Source: Leisingera aquaemixtae (GTDB lineage: Bacteria > Pseudomonadota > Alphaproteobacteria > Rhodobacterales > Rhodobacteraceae). From it: a DNA stretch of 64,000 nt. Where the stretch lies: the NCBI RefSeq assembly GCF_001458395.1, contig NZ_CYSR01000009.1:1-64000 (forward strand). Direction: 5' to 3'. Below the pieces are notes generated by a model. The model saw only the letters and a list, made by a program, of their open reading frames with translations, was not told the origin of the DNA and ran no database searches. Position 1 is the stretch's first letter. Each line of letters opens with the position of its first letter. Shown here piece after piece: positions 50,805-61,262 of this stretch. Both the position numbers and the translations under genes were made by a program.

Positions 50805-51980
50805 TTGGCAGTAGCACTCCACATCAATCAGCGAATCCGCGAAAACGCGGAGAACCTCAGTGCGGCCCTCAACAGCCACATGCTGGCGAGTTTTGCACCG
50901 GATGCAAGGAAGGAACTGCGGCTGTTCAGCGCCGGGGAAGCGGCGGAGATGCTGGGCATTTCCTCCAGTTTCCTGCGCAAGCTGCATTTTGACGGAAAAC
51001 TTCCCGAGGTTCACACCACACCGGGCGGGCGGCGCCATTATTCCGCCGCCGATCTGCTGGAGATGCGTAAGATCCTGGATGCCTCGGCCAAGACGCCGGG
51101 CACCTACCTGCGCGGCCGCCGCGCGGGCGACAAGGTGCAGGTTCTGTCCTTCCTGAACTTCAAGGGCGGCTCGGGCAAGACCACCTCGTCCATTCACACC
51201 GCGCAGCGGCTGGCGCTCAAGGGCTACCGGGTGCTGGCGGTGGATATCGACCCGCAGGCGTCGCTGACGACGCTTTTCGGCTACCGGCCAGAGGTCGATT
51301 TCCTTGAAACAGGGACGATTTACGACGCAATCCGCTATGATGACCCCCTGCCCCTGCGCCAGATCATCCAGCAAACCTATTTCACCGGCCTGGACCTGGC
51401 GCCGGGCGGGCTGATCCTGCAGGAATTCGAGCATGAGACGCCGCAGGCGCTGATCCACAACGTGCAGCCTGCGTTCTTTTCGCGCATGGCCGCAGCGCTG
51501 GAGGAGGTCGAGGCCGATTACGACGTGATCATCTTCGACTGCCCGCCGCAGCTCGGCTATCTCACCATGTCGGCGCTCTGCGCCTCGACCGGCGTGATCA
51601 TCACCGTGGTGCCGAACATGCTCGACATCGCGTCTATGTCTCAGTTCCTGCAGATGTCCGCCGAACTGCTGGACGTGGTGTCCAACGCCGGCGCGGCGCT
51701 GGAATTCGATTTCCTGCGCTTCCTGATCAACCGATACGAGCCGAACGACGGACCGCAGCAACAGGTGGTTGCATTCCTGCGGCAATTGTTCGGCGAGGAG
51801 GTCATGGTGGCCCCGATGCTGAAATCCACCGCGATTTCCGATGCGGGCCTGACCCAGCAGACGGTCTATGAGGTCGAAAGATCCCAGTTTCACAGGTCAA
51901 CCTATGACCGTGCGGTCGATTCACTGAATCAAGTTAACGATGAAATAGAATCGCTCCTTCAACAAGCATGGAGGCGTTGA
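50805..51980 (+). CDS. repA: RepA, ParA-type partition ATPase of the RepABC replicon
   Basis: A 391-residue ParA-family protein. An N-terminal MerR-like HTH (ELRLFSAGEAAEMLGISSSFLRKLHFDGKLPEVHTTPGGRRHYS, about 38-80) precedes the ATPase with the deviant Walker A box KGGSGKTT (120-127) and VIIFDCPPQLGYLT. RepA drives plasmid partition with RepB and represses the operon. The apparent start is TTG at 50805 with GAGAGGG upstream; a start at the internal ATG would lose the leader. It overlaps repB by one base. Confidence 0.95.
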   Translation: MAVALHINQRIRENAENLSAALNSHMLASFAPDARKELRLFSAGEAAEMLGISSSFLRKLHFDGKLPEVHTTPGGRRHYSAADLLEMRKILDASAKTPGTYLRGRRAGDKVQVLSFLNFKGGSGKTTSSIHTAQRLALKGYRVLAVDIDPQASLTTLFGYRPEVDFLETGTIYDAIRYDDPLPLRQIIQQTYFTGLDLAPGGLILQEFEHETPQALIHNVQPAFFSRMAAALEEVEADYDVIIFDCPPQLGYLTMSALCASTGVIITVVPNMLDIASMSQFLQMSAELLDVVSNAGAALEFDFLRFLINRYEPNDGPQQQVVAFLRQLFGEEVMVAPMLKSTAISDAGLTQQTVYEVERSQFHRSTYDRAVDSLNQVNDEIESLLQQAWRR

Positions 51981-52954
51981 TGGCACGCAAAGGCATTCTC
52001 AGCACGGCACTCAGCAGCCCGGCAGCATCCGCTGGCGGGCCGAAACCCAAGATGATGCCGCGCGGCGCGGTCGGGGCGCTGCAATCCTCGCTCAGCAAGC
52101 TGCAGGAAAGCGCGGTGCAGGAAATCGACACCGCGCTGATCGACGACGCCGGTTACGAGGACCGCCTGGGCATGGACGGGGCCGCCTTCAACCAGCTGAA
52201 GGACAGCCTGCAGACCTACGGCCAGCAGGTGCCGGTGCTGCTGCGGCCGCCCCCCGCCACGCCGGGGCGGTTCGAAATCGTCTACGGCCGCCGCCGCCTC
52301 AAGGCGCTGCGCGAGCTGGGCCTGCCGGTCAAGGCGATGGTGCGGCAGCTGGACGACCACGCGCTGGTGATGGCCCAGGGCCAGGAAAACACCTCGCGCC
52401 AGGACCTCAGCTTCATCGAAAAGGCCGCCTTTGCGGCGCAGCTGCAGGCGGATGGCTATGGACGGCAGACAATTGCCGCCGCGCTGTCCATCGACCTGCC
52501 GATGGTGTCGCGGATGCTCAAGGTCGGCACCGCCTTTGATTTGCCCTTCCTGCGCACGATCGGCTCCGCCCCCGGCATTGGCCGCGACCGCTGGATGATG
52601 CTGGTCAAGCTGTTCGCCGATCCGGCAGCCCGGTCCCGGGCGATCACCAGGACAAACCGGCCCGACTTCACCACCTATGACTCCGACGGGCGGTTCGAGG
52701 CCGTTCTGAAACATGCCCAGAACGCACCGCAGGAGGTGAAGCCAGCCCCTGCCCCGCCGAAAACCCGCGCTCTGCCCGGCAGCACCGGCGCTGAGGTCGC
52801 GGGCATCAAGACCACCGCCAAGGGCATCACCCTGACGATCTCAGCCAAGGACGCGCCGGGTTTTGACGCCTGGTTCGACGCCAACGCGGAAGAGATCATG
52901 GCAGAGCTTCACGGCCGCTGGCAGCAAGACCAGCCCGAGCAGCCGGAAGACTGA
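51980..52954 (+). CDS. repB: RepB, ParB-type centromere-binding protein
   Basis: A 324-residue ParB-like protein. The N-terminal RepA-interacting segment is MARKGILSTALSS. The ParB domain includes VYGRRRLKALRELGLPVKAMVRQ and the box MAQGQENTSRQDLSFIEKA. The HTH is near YGRQTIAAALSIDLPMVSRMLKVG. RepB binds parS palindromes and spreads. Start at 51980 has GGAGG in the end of repA, with TGATG coupling. It is the likely reader of the ATTGTCAGCTGACAAT sites downstream. Confidence 0.94.
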   Translation: MARKGILSTALSSPAASAGGPKPKMMPRGAVGALQSSLSKLQESAVQEIDTALIDDAGYEDRLGMDGAAFNQLKDSLQTYGQQVPVLLRPPPATPGRFEIVYGRRRLKALRELGLPVKAMVRQLDDHALVMAQGQENTSRQDLSFIEKAAFAAQLQADGYGRQTIAAALSIDLPMVSRMLKVGTAFDLPFLRTIGSAPGIGRDRWMMLVKLFADPAARSRAITRTNRPDFTTYDSDGRFEAVLKHAQNAPQEVKPAPAPPKTRALPGSTGAEVAGIKTTAKGITLTISAKDAPGFDAWFDANAEEIMAELHGRWQQDQPEQPED

Positions 52955-53134: not shown

Positions 53135-54274
53135 ATGGAAAAGGCGTCCCAAATCGCATTTGGGCGGCAGGATCCGTGCGGCCGGCTGGCAGGTGACCAC
53201 GACAAGTGGGACCTTCTGGCTGCGCTGACGCACGCCGCCGCGGAATTCGAACTCAGCCACCGCACCCTTGGGGTGCTGAAGGCCCTGCTCACTTTCTTCC
53301 CGGAGCGGGCGCTGCCCGCGGAGCCGGACAGCGCCATCGTGTTCCCGTCGAACCGCAAGCTGATGGAGCGCTTGAACGGGATGCCCGAAAGCACCCTGCG
53401 CCGCCATCTGGCCGCCCTCACCCGCATTGGCATTGTCAGCCGGAAGAACAGCCCCAACCGCAAGCGCTATGCCCGCCGCAGCGGCGAGGACACGGCTCTG
53501 GCCTTCGGCTTCGACCTGTCCCCCCTCGCCCGCCACGCCAGCCAGATCTTTGACGCCGCGCTGGTGGCCAAGGCCCGTGCCGGGCATCTGGCGGTGCTGC
53601 GCGACCAGGTGGCTGTGCTGCGCCAGCAGCTGTCGGAGCTGTCTGACGGCGCTGCGGAGCTGCTGGAGGCCGCCCGCAAACTGCTGCGCCGCAAACCCTG
53701 TAAGACGGAGCTGGCCCGGATGGCCGAAACCCTGCGCGAAGAAATTGCCAGCCGGACAGCGGATCAGGCCCCGCAGCCCTCCCGCCTGCCGTCACGCGAA
53801 ATGAGCGGCAGCACCAGCCAGAATGAGCGGCACATACAGCATTCACTAAAAAAAGATTCTGACTCTGAAGCGGCGCAGCCCGCAGCGCCCTGTTCCCCGC
53901 CTGATCGTGCAGACGCAGCGGGGGAAGAGGCTGAGAATGGCAATGGCCTGTCCACCGTCCTGCGCGCCTGCCCCGAAGTGCAAAGCTATTACCCCGGCGG
54001 GCTGCGCAGCTGGCAGGATGCCGACCTGATTGCCGAGAAGCTGTCACCGATGATGGGGATCGCGATGCCCGTGCTGAGCGATGCACGCGCCGCCATGGGC
54101 CGCAGGGACGCGGCAACCGCGGTGATGTGCATACTGGAAAAGCTGGGCACCATCCGCAGCCCGGGCGCCTATCTGCGGCGGCTGGCGCAGAAGGCGCGGG
54201 CGGGTCAGTTTTCGACCAAGCCGATGCTGGATGCGCTGCTGCAAAGGGGTGCCGGGGCGGAAATTGTCAGCTGA
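53135..54274 (+). CDS. repC: RepC, replication initiator of the RepABC replicon
   Basis: A 379-residue initiator. The N-terminal winged-helix domain (LTHAAAEFELSHRTLGVLKALLTF, PESTLRRHLAALTRIGIVSRKNSPN) is characteristic, with a helical middle and a conserved C-terminal part (SYYPGGLRSWQDADLIAEKLSPMMGI). ATG at 53135 chosen; the frame extends to a GTG at 53078 but that region is the ctRNA control area. The ribosome site is weak, as expected for a ctRNA-regulated gene. The stop codon lies inside the first parS-like palindrome. RepC initiates replication in cis at an origin inside its own gene. Confidence 0.94.
   Translation: MEKASQIAFGRQDPCGRLAGDHDKWDLLAALTHAAAEFELSHRTLGVLKALLTFFPERALPAEPDSAIVFPSNRKLMERLNGMPESTLRRHLAALTRIGIVSRKNSPNRKRYARRSGEDTALAFGFDLSPLARHASQIFDAALVAKARAGHLAVLRDQVAVLRQQLSELSDGAAELLEAARKLLRRKPCKTELARMAETLREEIASRTADQAPQPSRLPSREMSGSTSQNERHIQHSLKKDSDSEAAQPAAPCSPPDRADAAGEEAENGNGLSTVLRACPEVQSYYPGGLRSWQDADLIAEKLSPMMGIAMPVLSDARAAMGRRDAATAVMCILEKLGTIRSPGAYLRRLAQKARAGQFSTKPMLDALLQRGAGAEIVS
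53828..53870 (+). other. candidate replication origin inside repC
   Basis: An AT-rich patch (ATACAGCATTCACTAAAAAAAGATTCTGAC region) inside the otherwise GC-rich repC gene. In characterised repABC plasmids the origin lies within repC in such an AT-rich stretch. The assignment rests on that precedent plus base composition. Confidence 0.6.
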
Positions 54275-54278
54275 CAAT
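54263..54278. promoter_or_regulatory. parS-like palindrome 1, overlapping the repC stop
   Basis: ATTGTCAGCTGACAAT, a perfect 16-bp palindrome, with the TGA stop of repC (54272-54274) inside it. It fits most fixed positions of the rhizobial consensus GTTNNCNGCNGNNAAC, with A/T instead of G/C at the two ends. Confidence 0.8.
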
Positions 54279-54395: not shown

Positions 54396-54411
54396 ATTGT
54401 CAGCTGACAAT
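54396..54411. promoter_or_regulatory. parS-like palindrome 2
   Basis: Exact second copy of ATTGTCAGCTGACAAT, 133 bp after the first; with its leading A-run the left flank reads GAAAA. Confidence 0.8.
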
Positions 54412-54517: not shown

Positions 54518-54533
54518 ATTGTCAGCTGACAAT
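54518..54533. promoter_or_regulatory. parS-like palindrome 3
   Basis: Exact third copy, with symmetry extending to GAAA/TTTC flanks (24 bp in total). 122 bp after copy 2. Confidence 0.8.
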
Positions 54534-54634
54534 TTTCCTCTGCCGCCGCGTTCCGGTGATCCGGGCCGTTGCTTTTGCCGCCAGCCTGCGGCCACAGTGG
54601 CGGCAACGCTCCCAGCCCGAGGACTCCGCCGCCC

Positions 54635-55948
54635 ATGCTGTCCATTCTGAAGAACCGCACCTACCGGCATTTGTTCCTGGCCCAGATCGTCGCTCTGACC
54701 GGCACCGGGCTGGCGACCGTGGCGCTTGGCTTGCTGGCCTTTGACCTGGCGGGCGAGCGTGCCGGGCTGGTGCTGGGCACCGCGCTGACGATCAAGATGG
54801 CGGCCTATGTCACTGTGGCCCCGGTGGCGGCCGCCTGGGCGGAACAGGCGGACCGGCGCAAAATGCTGATCACCCTGGATCTGGTGCGGATGCTGGTGGC
54901 GGTTTGCCTGCCGTTCGTCAGCGAGGTCTGGCAGGTCTATGTGCTGATCTTCGTGCTGCAATCCGCCTCTGCCGGGTTCACGCCCGCGTTCCAGGCCTCG
55001 ATCCCCGATGTGCTGACGGAGGAGAAGGAGTACACCCAGGCGCTGTCGCTGTCGCGGCTGGCGTTTGAGCTGGAGAGCCTGGCCAGCCCGATGCTGGCCG
55101 CGGCGCTGCTGCTGGCGGTCAGTTCCGGCACCCTGTTCTGGGGCACCGCGGCGGGGTTCGCCGGATCGGCCCTGCTGCTGCTGACAATCGCGCTGCCGTC
55201 CCCCGCGCCCAGGGCGCGGCGTCCGGTCTGGGAGCGCACCACCCGCGGCATCCGCAACTATCTGAAGACACCGCGGCTGCGCGGGCTTCTGGCGCTGAAC
55301 TGGGCGGTATCGGCCATCGGTGCGATGGTGATCGTCAACACGGTTGTGCTGGTGCGCGCCGGCATGGCGCTGCCCGAAAGCTCCGTTGCGCTGGCGCTGG
55401 CGGCGTTCGGCGGCGGCTCGATGCTGTCGGCGCTGCTGCTACCGCGGCTGCTGCAGCGGCTGCCCGACCGGACCGTGATGCTGGCCGGGGCAGGGCTGAG
55501 CATTGCCGCCATGGCGTGCCTGGCGCTGGCCGCCTTTGCCGCACCGCTGACCTTTGCACGGCTGGCAACAGGCTGGGCGGTGATCGGCGTGGGCTGGTCG
55601 GCGGTGCTGACGCCCTCGGGACGGCTCTTGGCGCGGTCGGCCCATCCGGCGGACCGGCCCGCGGTCTTTGCCGCGCAGTTCACCCTGTCGCACGCCTGCT
55701 GGCTGCTGTTCTACCCGCTGTCGGCCTGGCTGATGGCCGCCTGGGGCGGCGTCGCGGCGATGCTGGCGCTGGCGCTTCTGGCCGCGGCAGGGCTGTTCGC
55801 CGCGCAGCGCCTGTGGCCCCGCGACAGCGCCGCCCCGGTTGCGCACAGCCATCCGGACCTGCCGGCCGACCATCCGCACCTGCAAGGCGCCGCGCCGCAC
55901 GCGCATCCGATCATCATCGACGATCTGCACCCGCGGTATCCCCGGTAA
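54635..55948 (+). CDS. MFS exporter with His-rich C-terminal tail
   Basis: A 437-residue major facilitator with about 12 membrane spans (LFLAQIVALTGTGLATVALGLLAFDLAGERAGLVLG begins the first half). The AEQADRRK loop is the usual motif between TM2 and TM3. The last 35 or so residues carry seven histidines (HSHPDLPADHPHLQGAAPHAHP), a possible metal-binding tail. Drug or metal-ion export are both possible; the tail hints at Zn, Ni or Co but does not prove it. ATG at 54635. Confidence 0.85.
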   Translation: MLSILKNRTYRHLFLAQIVALTGTGLATVALGLLAFDLAGERAGLVLGTALTIKMAAYVTVAPVAAAWAEQADRRKMLITLDLVRMLVAVCLPFVSEVWQVYVLIFVLQSASAGFTPAFQASIPDVLTEEKEYTQALSLSRLAFELESLASPMLAAALLLAVSSGTLFWGTAAGFAGSALLLLTIALPSPAPRARRPVWERTTRGIRNYLKTPRLRGLLALNWAVSAIGAMVIVNTVVLVRAGMALPESSVALALAAFGGGSMLSALLLPRLLQRLPDRTVMLAGAGLSIAAMACLALAAFAAPLTFARLATGWAVIGVGWSAVLTPSGRLLARSAHPADRPAVFAAQFTLSHACWLLFYPLSAWLMAAWGGVAAMLALALLAAAGLFAAQRLWPRDSAAPVAHSHPDLPADHPHLQGAAPHAHPIIIDDLHPRYPR

Positions 55949-56066: not shown

Positions 56067-57275
56067 GTGACAGGGAACTACGTTCTGACAGACGCCCGGC
56101 TGGCCACGATGGCCAGTTCAGACACGCCTTATGGCCTGATTGAGGACGGGGCCGTCGCGGTCTCTGACGGCAGGATCGTCTGGGCCGGGCCGCGGGAAAA
56201 ATTGTCAGCTGACAATTTTCCGTGGGAGCAGCGCAGCCTGGGCGGGCGGCTGGTCACGCCGGGGCTGATCGACTGCCACACCCATATCGTTTTTGGCGGC
56301 AACCGCGCGATGGAGTTTGAGATGCGCCTCAACGGGGCATCTTACGAGGAGGTCGCAAGGGCAGGGGGCGGTATCGTCTCCACCGTCTCGGCCACCCGCA
56401 CCGCTTCGCTGGAGGATCTGGTGCAGGGCGCACTGCCGCGTCTGGAGGCGCTGATCGCCGAAGGGGCTGCGGTGGTGGAGGTGAAATCCGGCTACGGGCT
56501 GGATCTGGACACCGAACTCAACATGCTGCGCGCCGCCCGGCGTCTTGGGAACTTGCGCCCGGTGACGGTGAAAACCACCTTCCTTGGCGCCCATGCCACG
56601 CCGGGCGAGTACAAGGGCCGTGATGACGACTACATCGATCAGGTCTGCATCCCCGCCCTGCGCGCCGCCCATGCGGAGGGGCTGGTGGATGCGGTCGACG
56701 GCTTCTGCGAAAACATCGCGTTTTCCCCTGCGCAGATCGAACGCGTGTTCAAGGCGGCGCAGGAACTGGGCCTGCCGGTGAAACTGCACGCCGAACAGCT
56801 GAGCCATCAGGGCGGCACCGCGCTGGCCGCGGACTACGGCGCGTTGTCAGTCGATCACGTGGAATACGCAACCGAGGATGACGCCAAGGCGATGGCCGCG
56901 TCCGGCTCCGTCGCGGTGATCCTGCCCGGTGCCTTCTACACCATCCGCGAAACGCAAGCGCCGCCGATTGATCACTTCCGTGAGCACGGCGTGCCGATGG
57001 CGCTGGCGACCGATTGCAATCCCGGCTCCTCGCCGCTGACCTCCTTGCTGCTGACGATGAACATGGGCTGCACCCTGTTCCGCATGACGCCGGAGGAGGC
57101 GCTGGCAGGCGTCACCCGCAACGCAGCCCGCGCGCTGGGGCTGGCGGACCGGGGACAGATCGCTGCCGGTATGCGCGCCGATCTGGCGGTCTGGGACGTG
57201 GAGACGCCCGCAGAGCTGGCCTACCGCATCGGCTTCAACCCGCTTTACACCCGTATCCATGAGGGCACCCAATGA
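56067..57275 (+). CDS. hutI: imidazolonepropionase
   Basis: A 402-residue amidohydrolase-superfamily enzyme that hydrolyses 4-imidazolone-5-propionate to N-formimino-glutamate in histidine degradation. HxH metal site at 71-73 ([13 protein letters not shown]), KSGYGLD near 151, and DCNPGSSP. Start GTG at 56067 with GGGGG upstream. Residues 44-51 (EKLSADNF) are encoded by the fourth parS palindrome, with codons TTG, TCA and AAT unlike the GC-rich usage around them. The gene overlaps hutH by 4 bp. Confidence 0.96.
56201..56216. promoter_or_regulatory. parS-like palindrome 4, inside the hutI coding sequence
   Basis: Exact copy of ATTGTCAGCTGACAAT, read in frame as the third base of Lys45 followed by Leu-Ser-Ala-Asp-Asn, 1.67 kb beyond copy 3. 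It is in the N-terminal beta-sandwich region of HutI, before the HxH motif, where an extra loop is likely tolerated. Confidence 0.8.
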
Positions 57276-58804
57276 TCGAGATGATTCAGATGGTTCCGGG
57301 CACAGTGACCCTGGCCACGCTGGAAGATATCTACCGCAACCTGACCCCGGCCAAGCTGGATGCCTCGGCGCGGGAACCGGTGGAGGCTGCCGCGAAAATG
57401 GTGGCGGATGCCGCAGCGGGGGAGGAAGTCGTCTATGGCATCAACACCGGTTTCGGCAAGCTCGCCTCGACCAAGATCGCACCGGCCGATACCGCCACCC
57501 TGCAGCGCAACCTGATCCTCAGCCACTGCTGCGGCGTGGGCGAGCCGCTGCCGGAGGACAAGACCCGGCTGATGATGACGCTGAAACTCCTGTCGATGGG
57601 CCGCGGCGCCTCCGGCGTGCGCTGGCTGGTGATCGAGCAGATCGAGCAAATGCTGGAACGCGGCGTGGTGCCGGTGATCCCGTCGCAGGGCTCCGTCGGC
57701 GCCTCCGGCGACCTGGCGCCGCTGGCGCATATGGCGGCGGCGATGATCGGGGCAGGGGAGGCGACGTTCGAAGGGATCCGCATGTCCAGCGCGGATGCGC
57801 TGAAAGAGGCCGGGTTAGAGCCTATTGTGCTCGGCCCCAAGGAAGGCCTGGGGCTGATCAACGGCACCCAGTTCTCCACCGCCTGCGCGCTGGCCGGGCT
57901 GTTTGACGCCTGGCGCATGGCAGAGGCCTCGATGGCGATTGCCTCGCTCACCACCGACGCCATCATGGGCTCCACCGCGCCGCTGGTCGCCGATATCCAT
58001 TCCTTGCGCGGCCATGCCGGGCAGATCGACGTGGCCCGCGAGATGCGCGCGATCATGGACGGATCGGAAATCCGCGAAAGCCACCGTGAGGGCGACACCC
58101 GGGTGCAGGATCCCTATTGCATCCGCTGCCAGCCGCAGGTGGTGGGCGCGGCGCTGGACGTGCTGCGGATGGCCGCCAAAACGCTGGAGATCGAGGCCAA
58201 CGCCGTAACGGATAATCCGCTGGTGCTGGTGAACGAGGGGCGCATCGTCTCCGGCGGCAACTTCCACGCCGAATACGTGGGCTTTGCCGCCGATCAGATC
58301 GCGCTCGCCGTGGCCGAAATCGGCGCCATCGCGCAGCGCCGGGTGGCCTTGATGGTGGACCCGACCCTCAGCCACGACCTGCCGCCGTTCCTGACGCCTG
58401 ATCCGGGCCTCAATTCCGGTTTCATGATCGCCGAGGTGACCACTGCCGCGCTGATGAGCGAAAACAAGCATTTGGCGAATCCTTGCGTCACGGATTCAAC
58501 CCCGACGTCAGCAAACCAGGAGGACCACGTGTCGATGGCCGCCCACGGCGCGCTGCGGCTGGGACGGATGACCGCCAACCTGTCGGTGATCTTGGGCGTC
58601 GAAATGCTCTGTGCCGCGCAAGGGGTGGAGGCGCGCGCGCCTCTGCAAACCTCTGCCCGGTTGCAGGACGTTCTGGCGATGCTGCGCGCGGAGATCCCCG
58701 CGCTGGCCGAGGACCGTTACCTGGCCCCCGATATCGAAGCTGCCAGCGCCATGGTCCGCGCAGGCCGCGTCGCGGACGCCGCAGGCGTGAAGGTGGCGGC
58801 ATGA
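57272..58804 (+). CDS. hutH: histidine ammonia-lyase
   Basis: A 510-residue enzyme that deaminates L-histidine to urocanate. The Ala144-Ser145-Gly146 triad ([16 protein letters not shown]) autocyclises to the MIO cofactor. [11 protein letters not shown] and [16 protein letters not shown] are family signatures. It starts at a 4-bp overlap with hutI and ends with one with hutG. Confidence 0.97.
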
Positions 58805-59583
58805 TCGACGTCACCCAAGGGTCGTCGCCGCTGGTGCTGGGCCTGCCCCACACCGGCACGGATGTGCCGCCAGAGGTCTGGGACTGCCTGAACGGGACGG
58901 GCAGGGCGCTGGCCGACACCGACTGGCATATCCATGACCTCTATGCCGGGCTGGTGGAGGAGGTCACAACCGTCCGCACGCCGGTCCATCGCTATGTGAT
59001 CGACGTGAACCGCGATCCCGCAGGTATCAGTCTCTATCCCGGGCAAAACACCACCACTCTGGTGCCCATGACCGATTTCGACGGGCTGCCGGTCTGGCAG
59101 GAGGGCAGGGAGCCGGATGAGGCCGAAATCACCCGCCGCCGCGCGGCCTATCACGCGCCGTACCACACGGCGCTGGCGGCAGAGCTGGAGCGTGTGAAGG
59201 CCCTCCACGGCTTTGCCATCCTCTACGATTGCCACTCGATCCGCGGCGATATCCCGTTCCTGTTCGACGGCCGCCTGCCGGATTTCAACGTCGGCACCAA
59301 CCTGGGCGAAACCTGCGATCCCGCCATCGAGGCGCTGACCGTGGCACGTTGCGAGGCGGCGGAGGGTTATACCTCCACCCTGAACGGGCGCTTCAAGGGC
59401 GGCTGGACCACCCGCCACTATGGCCGCCCCGCCGAAGGCCTGCACGCCATCCAGATGGAGCTGGCGCAGGCCACCTACTGCCAGGAGGCACCGCCCTGGA
59501 CCTATCTGCCGGAGCGCGCGGAATCCCTGCGTGCCCATCTCACCCATATTCTCACCGATCTTCAGACCTGGAGGCCCGCATGA
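58801..59583 (+). CDS. hutG: N-formylglutamate deformylase
   Basis: A 260-residue N-formylglutamate amidohydrolase family protein ([42 protein letters not shown] with metal-type His/Asp; [20 protein letters not shown]). It releases formate from N-formylglutamate to give glutamate. This branch needs a formimino-glutamate deiminase (HutF), which is not in the window. The 4-bp overlaps at both ends indicate coupling. Confidence 0.93.
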
Positions 59584-61262
59584 GCGATCCCCGCAAGAAC
59601 ACCCGCGACATCTTCCCGCCGACCGGCCCGGAGCTTAACGCCAAGTCCTGGATGACCGAGGCGCCGCTGCGGATGATGATGAACAACCTGCACCCGGATG
59701 TGGCCGAAAACCCGCATGAGCTGGTGGTCTACGGCGGCATCGGCCGCGCCCCGCGCACCTGGAAGGATTTCGACCTGATCGTCGAGACCCTGAAAAACCT
59801 TGAGGAAGATCAGACCCTTATGGTGCAGTCTGGCAAGCCCGTGGGCGTGTTCCAGACCCACAAGGACGCGCCCCGCGTGCTGATCGCCAACTCCAACCTG
59901 GTGCCGCATTGGGCCAACTGGGACCACTTCAACGAGCTCGATAAGAAGGGCCTGATGATGTACGGCCAGATGACGGCCGGCTCCTGGATCTATATCGGCA
60001 CCCAGGGCATCGTGCAGGGCACCTATGAGACCTTTGCCGAGGCCGGCCGCCAGCATTACGGCGGCGACCTCAAGGGCAAGTGGATCCTGACCGGCGGCCT
60101 CGGCGGCATGGGCGGCGCCCAGCCGCTGGCCGCAGTCTTCGCCGGTGCCTGCTGCCTCGCGGTGGAGTGCAACCCGGACTCGATCGACTTCCGCCTGCGC
60201 ACCAAATACCTGGACGAGAAGGCCGAAACCCTGGACGAGGCGCTGGAGATGATCGAGCGCTGGACCGCCGCGGGCGAGGCGAAATCCGTGGGCCTTCTGG
60301 GCAACGCGGCAGAGATCTTCCCCGAACTGGTGGAGCGCGCCAAGGCGGGCGGCATCCGCCCAGACATCGTGACCGACCAGACCTCTGCCCACGACCCGGT
60401 GAACGGCTACCTGCCGCTGGGCTGGACCATGGGCGAATGGAAGGAGCGCCGGGTCTCCGAGCCGAAAGCGGTGGAAATGGCCGCCCGCGCCAGCATGCGC
60501 GTGCAGGTGAAGGCGATGTGCGATTTCCACGCGATGGGCGTGCCGACGGTGGATTACGGCAACAACATCCGCCAGATGGCGCTGGAGGAGGGGCTGGAGA
60601 ACGCCTTTGACTTCCCCGGCTTCGTGCCCGCCTACATCCGCCCGCTGTTCTGCCGCGGCATCGGCCCGTTCCGCTGGGCCGCACTCTCCGGCGATCCGGA
60701 GGATATCAGGAAGACCGACGCCAAGATGAAGGAGCTGTTCCCCGAGAACGAGGGACTGCACCGCTGGCTGGACATGGCGCAGGAGCGGATTGCCTTCCAG
60801 GGCCTGCCCGCGCGGATCTGCTGGATCGGCCTCGGCGACCGCCACAAGGCGGGCCTTGCCTTCAACGAAATGGTCCGCACGGGCGAGCTGAAGGCGCCGG
60901 TGGTCATCGGCCGCGACCATCTGGACTCGGGCTCGGTGGCGTCACCGAACCGCGAGACCGAGGCGATGATGGACGGCTCCGACGCGGTGTCCGACTGGCC
61001 GCTCTTGAACGCGCTCCTGAACACCGCCTCCGGTGCGACCTGGGTGTCGCTGCACCACGGCGGCGGCGTTGGCATGGGCTTCTCGCAGCATTCCGGCGTG
61101 GTGATCTGCTGCGACGGCAGCGAGGACGCAGAGCGCCGGATCGGCCGCGTGCTGTGGAACGACCCGGCCACCGGCGTCATGCGCCATGCGGATGCGGGTT
61201 ATGACATTGCCAAGGACTGCGCGCGCGAGCATGGGCTGAACCTGCCCGGCATCCTGGGCTGA
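59580..61262 (+). CDS. hutU: urocanate hydratase
   Basis: A 560-residue NAD-dependent urocanase, converting urocanate to imidazolonepropionate. [13 protein letters not shown] binds the cofactor [39 protein letters not shown] and [15 protein letters not shown] are family signatures. Last gene of hutIHGU. Confidence 0.97.

Follow-up and report, generated by a model that had tools for sequence, protein, structure and literature searches.

Why should a parS-type palindrome lie inside the reading frame of hutI, an ordinary catabolic gene, and has selection kept the DNA or the protein there? The window (the whole stretch of DNA analysed, 64,000 nucleotides) is part of contig 9 of the 4.6-Mb, 40-contig genome of Leisingera aquaemixtae. 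The features that concern us are the following, all genes being on the plus strand and the palindromes having no strand:

50805 to 51980, plus strand: repA, open reading frame for a ParA-like partition ATPase of the RepABC-8 module, 95-100% identical in 25 other linked loci
51980 to 52954, plus strand: repB, open reading frame for a ParB-like protein, the predicted palindrome binder; close RepB in 19 of 21 Leisingera genomes, this one included
53135 to 54274, plus strand: repC, open reading frame for a replication initiator of type RepC-8, with an 81% identical homologue on NC_023146.1 (pMeth_B221)
54263 to 54278: putative parS copy 1, exact palindrome, containing the repC stop codon TGA (54272-54274)
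54396 to 54411: putative parS copy 2, exact palindrome, intergenic
54518 to 54533: putative parS copy 3, exact palindrome, intergenic
54569 to 55948, plus strand: gene between copy 3 and hutI whose homologue is annotated as an MFS transporter, with its start near 54635
56067 to 57275, plus strand: hutI, open reading frame whose best solved relative is 2puz, an imidazolonepropionase; host of copy 4
56201 to 56216: putative parS copy 4, exact 16-mer in hutI and the centre of a perfect 22-bp palindrome (56198-56219)
57272 to 61262, plus strand: hutH, hutG and hutU, the rest of the hut operon, open reading frames with a homologous annotated block in L. aquaemixtae

RepA is annotated as such in homologous Leisingera plasmids, and a close RepB also occurs on plasmids of other genera.

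The 16-mer ATTGTCAGCTGACAAT has four exact copies in the window, starting at 54263, 54396, 54518 and 56201, and these remain the only matches when up to three mismatches are allowed. One hundred shuffles of the window gave a mean of 0.19 matches and a maximum of 2, which together with the family-wide genome sample described below excludes a chance match. The original prediction had placed three copies right after repC and a fourth in frame in hutI. The number of the former is correct, but only copies 2 and 3 lie between repC and the MFS gene, copy 1 spanning the repC stop codon; the latter is exact at 56201, where it reads K45-L46-S47-A48-D49-N50. Within the GC-rich hutI gene, the A/T flanks of this copy resemble those of the copies that follow repC. 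Elsewhere in the same genome a fifth exact 16-mer is found at contig 29:6841, and the 14-bp core of the palindrome occurs nine times in total.

The 10 kb around the hutI site are 96.8% identical to plasmid NZ_CP041156.1 (175.6 kb). Contigs 9 and 29 (124 and 50 kb, about 174 kb together) probably constitute one plasmid of this kind, a joining that we infer because the core copies at C9:78612 and C29:6842 match copies on NZ_CP041156.1 in position and neighbours: the first lies 22.4 kb past the hutI site and its counterpart equally far with identical neighbours, and the second sits at the same end of the same oxidase gene as its counterpart. The contig 29 copy is thus probably on the same plasmid as hutI. 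Sixteen plasmid records cover at least 80% of the repABC-MFS-hut query, and all 14 of those examined carry the exact 16-mer in hutI. At locus L067 no match to the MFS gene was found between repC and hutI, hutI coming directly after repC, and the palindrome is present in this hutI too. The L067 record is titled Nocardioides marinus, yet its RepABC and hut block are of the Leisingera type and the title looks wrong.

The assignment of the 16-mer as the parS-type palindrome of RepABC-8 plasmids is well supported by comparison with modules of other taxa and by the family sample, which bear out the identity first proposed for it. We examined ten modules, all outside Leisingera, out of 92 plasmid records with a RepB match, their RepB proteins being 62.7-68.1% identical to the one studied here. 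In nine of them the exact 14-mer TTGTCAGCTGACAA is situated within the 3' end of repC or spans it, and the tenth (L194) has it at the repC 3' end with one central mismatch. The same 14-mer is found at the repC of pGal_C110 (L197), pMeth_B221 (L029) and pAqui_C182 (L063), plasmids that have been typed as RepABC-8 or RepC-8 (PMC4148982, PMC3910543, PMC3910692), pMeth_B221 (NC_023146.1) being typed RepC-8 in PMC3910543. A second RepB-bearing module examined in the L. aquaemixtae genome, on contig 4, carries TTCACAGCTGTGAA, the group 2 palindrome, which differs from TTGTCAGCTGACAA. Compared by eye with the repABC parS consensus GTTNNCNGCNGNNAAC (PMC9040568), the inner 14 bases fit, and at the two outermost positions A and T stand in place of G and C. 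RepABC compatibility groups have been described as having one type of 14-bp perfect palindrome each, beside the RepABC operon (PMC5613091, describing Petersen et al. 2009); the element studied here is likewise a 14-bp perfect palindrome adjoining a RepABC operon, the group 8 form being TTGTCAG/CTGACAA. A literature search of article text, figures aside, returned no paper giving the full group 8 14-mer, which may well be in print. On Celeribacter indicus plasmid pP73A (L200:3497-4000), seven exact cores run from the repC end onwards within about 0.5 kb.

The family sample consisted of 149 genomes, one per genus and including the L. aquaemixtae genome, a close RepB being defined by an E value up to 1e-90. 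The 14-bp core is present in five of the six genomes with a close RepB and in one of the 143 without; the reversed pattern, taken as a control, turned up in 1 of 149. The two exceptions are G096, with a close RepB and no core, and G142, with a core and no close RepB. A stop is present in the RepB frame of G096 and in that of G140. In the five genomes that have both, the cores lie near repB apart from a few in two of them: one of three in G072 is on another contig, and in L. aquaemixtae four of nine are on other contigs and the C9:78612 core is about 26 kb from repB.

We then consider how tightly the hut genes go with this replicon. In the 21 Leisingera genomes hutI is single copy (E up to 1e-60), and in 19 of them a close RepB gene is found no more than about 5 kb away. 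The exceptions are G005, a draft of about 50 contigs, and G020: here hut is located elsewhere and the assemblies gave no close RepB (the best matches being 30% and 41% identical, respectively), so the proposal that the palindrome locks the hut operon to the replicon does not hold for 2 of 21 genomes. The core is exact in the hutI of 16 of the 19 linked genomes; counted over repABC-linked hutI loci, it is exact in 23 of 26 and has one mismatch in three. These three (L063, L064 and L066) carry TTGCCAGCTGACAA, and the exact site in hutI is therefore dispensable; they correspond to genomes G002 (L063), G009 (L064) and G008 (L066), the last two matched by equal RepB identity. Both unlinked Leisingera hutI genes keep the core, G005 as the exact 16-mer and L. 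thetidis as the 14-mer only. Each unlinked gene pairs with a linked one in the tree (L061 with L067, 98/95; L033 with L029, 91/71), and for this reason the linked state is likely the older and the two unlinked palindromes are likely relics. The unlinked genes have private codons at 7 of 140 positions each, which gives a chance of about 0.77 that five codons would stay unchanged without selection; their cores therefore neither support nor refute a parS function.

The outgroup, outside the Leisingera clade, consists of 70 HutI genes (L034, L035, L068 and L070-L136), none of which has the palindrome or the peptide LSADN, and the exact core is absent from the DNA of all 70 loci, whose flanks are between a few dozen bases and about 8 kb long. 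The expectation that the site would occur only where hut adjoins RepABC is thus in agreement with all 70 outgroup genes, but not with the two unlinked Leisingera genes. Phaeobacter italicus possesses a RepABC-8-like module (RepB 65% identical) with three cores on that contig; its hut genes are on a different contig and its hutI has no palindrome. Six further outgroup genomes (E up to 1e-40; best identity 36%, in one) showed neither a close RepB nor the core. The hutI of P. italicus (L068:8001-8170) is strongly Leisingera-like only past about codon 60: its match to the window begins at 56247, 31 bp past the site, and, in blocks of 20 codons, identity goes up from 0.43 to 0.93 once the third block has been passed. 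Identity over these first three blocks is low as well for the window against L067 and against L070. Recombination at the 5' end of this gene, near the place where the site would be, is possible.

The same distribution bears on the idea that the palindrome is a parS-like operator for a regulator of hut, for example a HutC-like GntR protein. A GntR-family gene is indeed annotated near hut in L033, L034 and L035, but the palindrome marks the repC end in taxa with no annotated hut gene in the repABC neighbourhood examined, and the outgroup hutI loci lack the core in every case. This distribution contradicts an operator role, to which we give next to no credence.

Selection on the site was assessed in an alignment of 28 different hutI genes of the Leisingera clade (the window, L019-L033, L057-L067 and L069), from which the duplicate loci L037, L041 and L052 had been dropped. 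Codon 46 is TTG in 28, codon 47 is TCA in 25 and CCA in three, codon 48 is GCT in 28, codon 49 is GAC in 28, and codon 50 is AAT in 26 and AAC in two, codons 46, 48 and 49 being invariant. Outside the site, TTG makes up 8% of the leucine codons in these genes, TCA 11% of serine, GCT 5% of alanine and AAT 16% of asparagine; AAA (about 56% of lysine) and GAC (59% of aspartate) are not unusual, and GAC is the only one of codons 46-50 that is not a minority codon. The claim of the original prediction that TTG, TCA and AAT are atypical for the gene is thereby confirmed, and GCT can be added to them. On a tree made without codons 44-51, the 16-mer takes 5 parsimony steps compared with a mean of 26.9 per in-phase window. 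Six of the 396 in-phase windows compared have 5 steps or fewer, the hutI site being one of them, and protein constraint may explain the other five, which are equally or more conserved. When codons were resampled for the same conserved residues elsewhere in hutI, the probability of so few steps at codons 46-50 was 0.0018, and that of finding L, A and D all unchanged was 0.00034.

The residue aligned to Ser47 is proline in 69 of the 70 outgroup HutI proteins and arginine in the other, and within the Leisingera clade proline versus serine at this position takes two changes. Because the outgroup has proline almost throughout, the site appears to have arisen by substitution, replacing a nearly invariant residue. 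Insertion of a mobile repeat is not favoured, the loop being equal in length to that of the nearest outgroups such as L068 and L070. The low number of steps, the rare codons and the replaced proline indicate together that selection appears to act on the DNA site and not on the protein, a well-supported conclusion from the alignments that upholds what had been suggested from the codons of a single gene. By the opposite account, hutI acquired the palindrome through chance or through conversion from a parS copy nearby, and simple inheritance has preserved it. The retention of the core in two genomes in which no close RepB was found and its imperfection in three linked genomes would suit such a history, but codons 46-49, mostly rare ones, have zero synonymous differences across the 28 genes against a gene mean rate of 0.27, and the matched resampling probabilities speak against it as well. 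We consider neutral inheritance quite improbable.

With regard to its position, the hutI copy begins at 56201, 1,927 bp past the repC end at 54274, and is 1,938 bp from the first core, the four sites spanning 1.95 kb. Comparable distances are seen beside other genes: in two Phaeobacter plasmids a distal core is located 1,749 and 1,750 bp from the first, between TetR and ccdB genes, in P. italicus the distance is 1,879 bp and in G127 1,812 bp; in L067, which has no MFS gene, it is 468 bp. Similar distances beside unrelated genes imply that the distal site recurs and its host gene does not. In Rhodobacterales repABC replicons, up to four parS repeats have been reported downstream of repC (Czarnecki et al. 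2022; PMC9040568), distant repeats being typically about 0.5-4 kb off and also found inside open reading frames, and the hutI copy falls inside this range of about 4 kb. Those authors proposed positive selection of parS even within coding sequences, with cases in cas3, casA and casB. The array described here resembles theirs in having parS downstream of repC with one site inside a coding sequence, and differs in its host gene, in its presence across most of a genus, and in the evidence for selection at the level of codons and of a proline-to-serine change. The main text of that study, its supplementary tables aside, does not mention Leisingera, Phaeobacter or hut genes. The 3parS locus of Paracoccus aminophilus pAMI4 likewise provides additional parS copies away from repABC, which are bound by RepB and needed for stability (PMC9040568), but it is non-coding, 2 kb long and located 11.5 kb downstream of repC, whereas the hutI copy is a site in a coding sequence. 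The hutI copy clearly adds a new case to an arrangement already known and does not represent a novel kind of system.

A site at this position could in principle have a dual role: RepB bound at 56201 and spreading from the array would lower hut transcription and so couple the use of histidine to the copy number of the plasmid or to the stage of the cell cycle. In favour of this, hutI leads the hut block and the site begins 134 bp within it, and in Pseudomonas aeruginosa ParB is reported to repress genes beside parS3 and parS4 (PMC5521831). Against this, hut persists apart from RepABC-8 in two Leisingera genomes, and the Phaeobacter distal sites, lying as they do between unrelated genes, show that it is the position that recurs and not hut. 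We regard such regulation as unlikely, and a partition function requires no effect on hut expression.

Copies of the core also occur at greater distances. The one at C9:78612 (L006) is intergenic, after argE and 22 kb past the hutI site, and is a candidate distant parS; five genomes have a core at the corresponding place, where the flanks have diverged, only 21% of their columns being invariant, in loci chosen for the core. The one at C29:6842 (L005) is within a coding sequence, at the C-terminus of an FMN-dependent alpha-hydroxy acid oxidase, reads LSADNF as in hutI, and is found in three genomes. Outside the plasmid there are 29 cores in 11 of the 21 Leisingera genomes, the replicon being assumed for draft contigs, compared with a single core among the 143 family genomes without a close RepB. 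Some of them are at orthologous places, for example the rpsB promoter region, a GidA-like gene and upstream of a sulfatase gene. The distant and chromosomal families, rpsB excepted, were fetched for the exact core, and core invariance there is consequently no evidence. In the GidA-like gene (C30:104172 of L. aquaemixtae, L010:5173) the core lies in the frame LSAD and is orthologous in six Leisingera loci, again chosen for the core.

The rpsB loci (L159-L188, n=30, from 30 of the 58 genomes with a match) were picked by gene and not by core. The exact core is upstream of rpsB (C30:311632 in L. aquaemixtae, L011:5633) in 8 of 21 Leisingera and in none of nine others, and its left half resembles a -35 box. 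In four Leisingera without the exact core both halves, judged by eye, have changed together, to TTGCC and GGCAA, which hints at a dimeric binder at this site. Within the genus, chromosomal cores show no clean correlation with RepB: by our count eight genomes have a close RepB and no chromosomal core, and G020, without a close RepB, has one. We regard the chromosomal copies as no more than a lead. That the plasmid RepB of Leisingera is a cell-wide DNA-binding protein, touching histidine use, ribosome synthesis and chromosome organisation, strikes us as decidedly improbable.

The explanation that we favour, with a probability of roughly 0.8 on the comparative evidence, is that the hutI palindrome functions as a parS site of the RepABC-8 plasmid, the distal member of a four-site array downstream of repC. 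This array would begin at the repC stop codon and extend 1.9 kb past it, and RepB would be expected to load at each of the four sites and to build, through sliding or bridging, a single partition complex over repC, the MFS gene and hutI, which RepA would segregate. In the Leisingera lineage, base substitutions would have built the site in a loop that is variable among HutI proteins, and selection for partition would have kept it, fixing rare codons and changing Pro47 to Ser. Binding by RepB, the joint complex and a benefit for plasmid stability are what we infer from this arrangement.

If this explanation is right, a centromere site constrains a metabolic enzyme: in a gene of ordinary catabolism, the plasmid's requirement for segregation would appear to have altered an almost invariant proline and fixed rare codons. 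This would support, at the level of codons, the selection of parS inside coding sequences that Czarnecki et al. proposed, and the natural variants of the site (exact, with one mismatch, unlinked and absent) offer a ready test set for its role in hutI.
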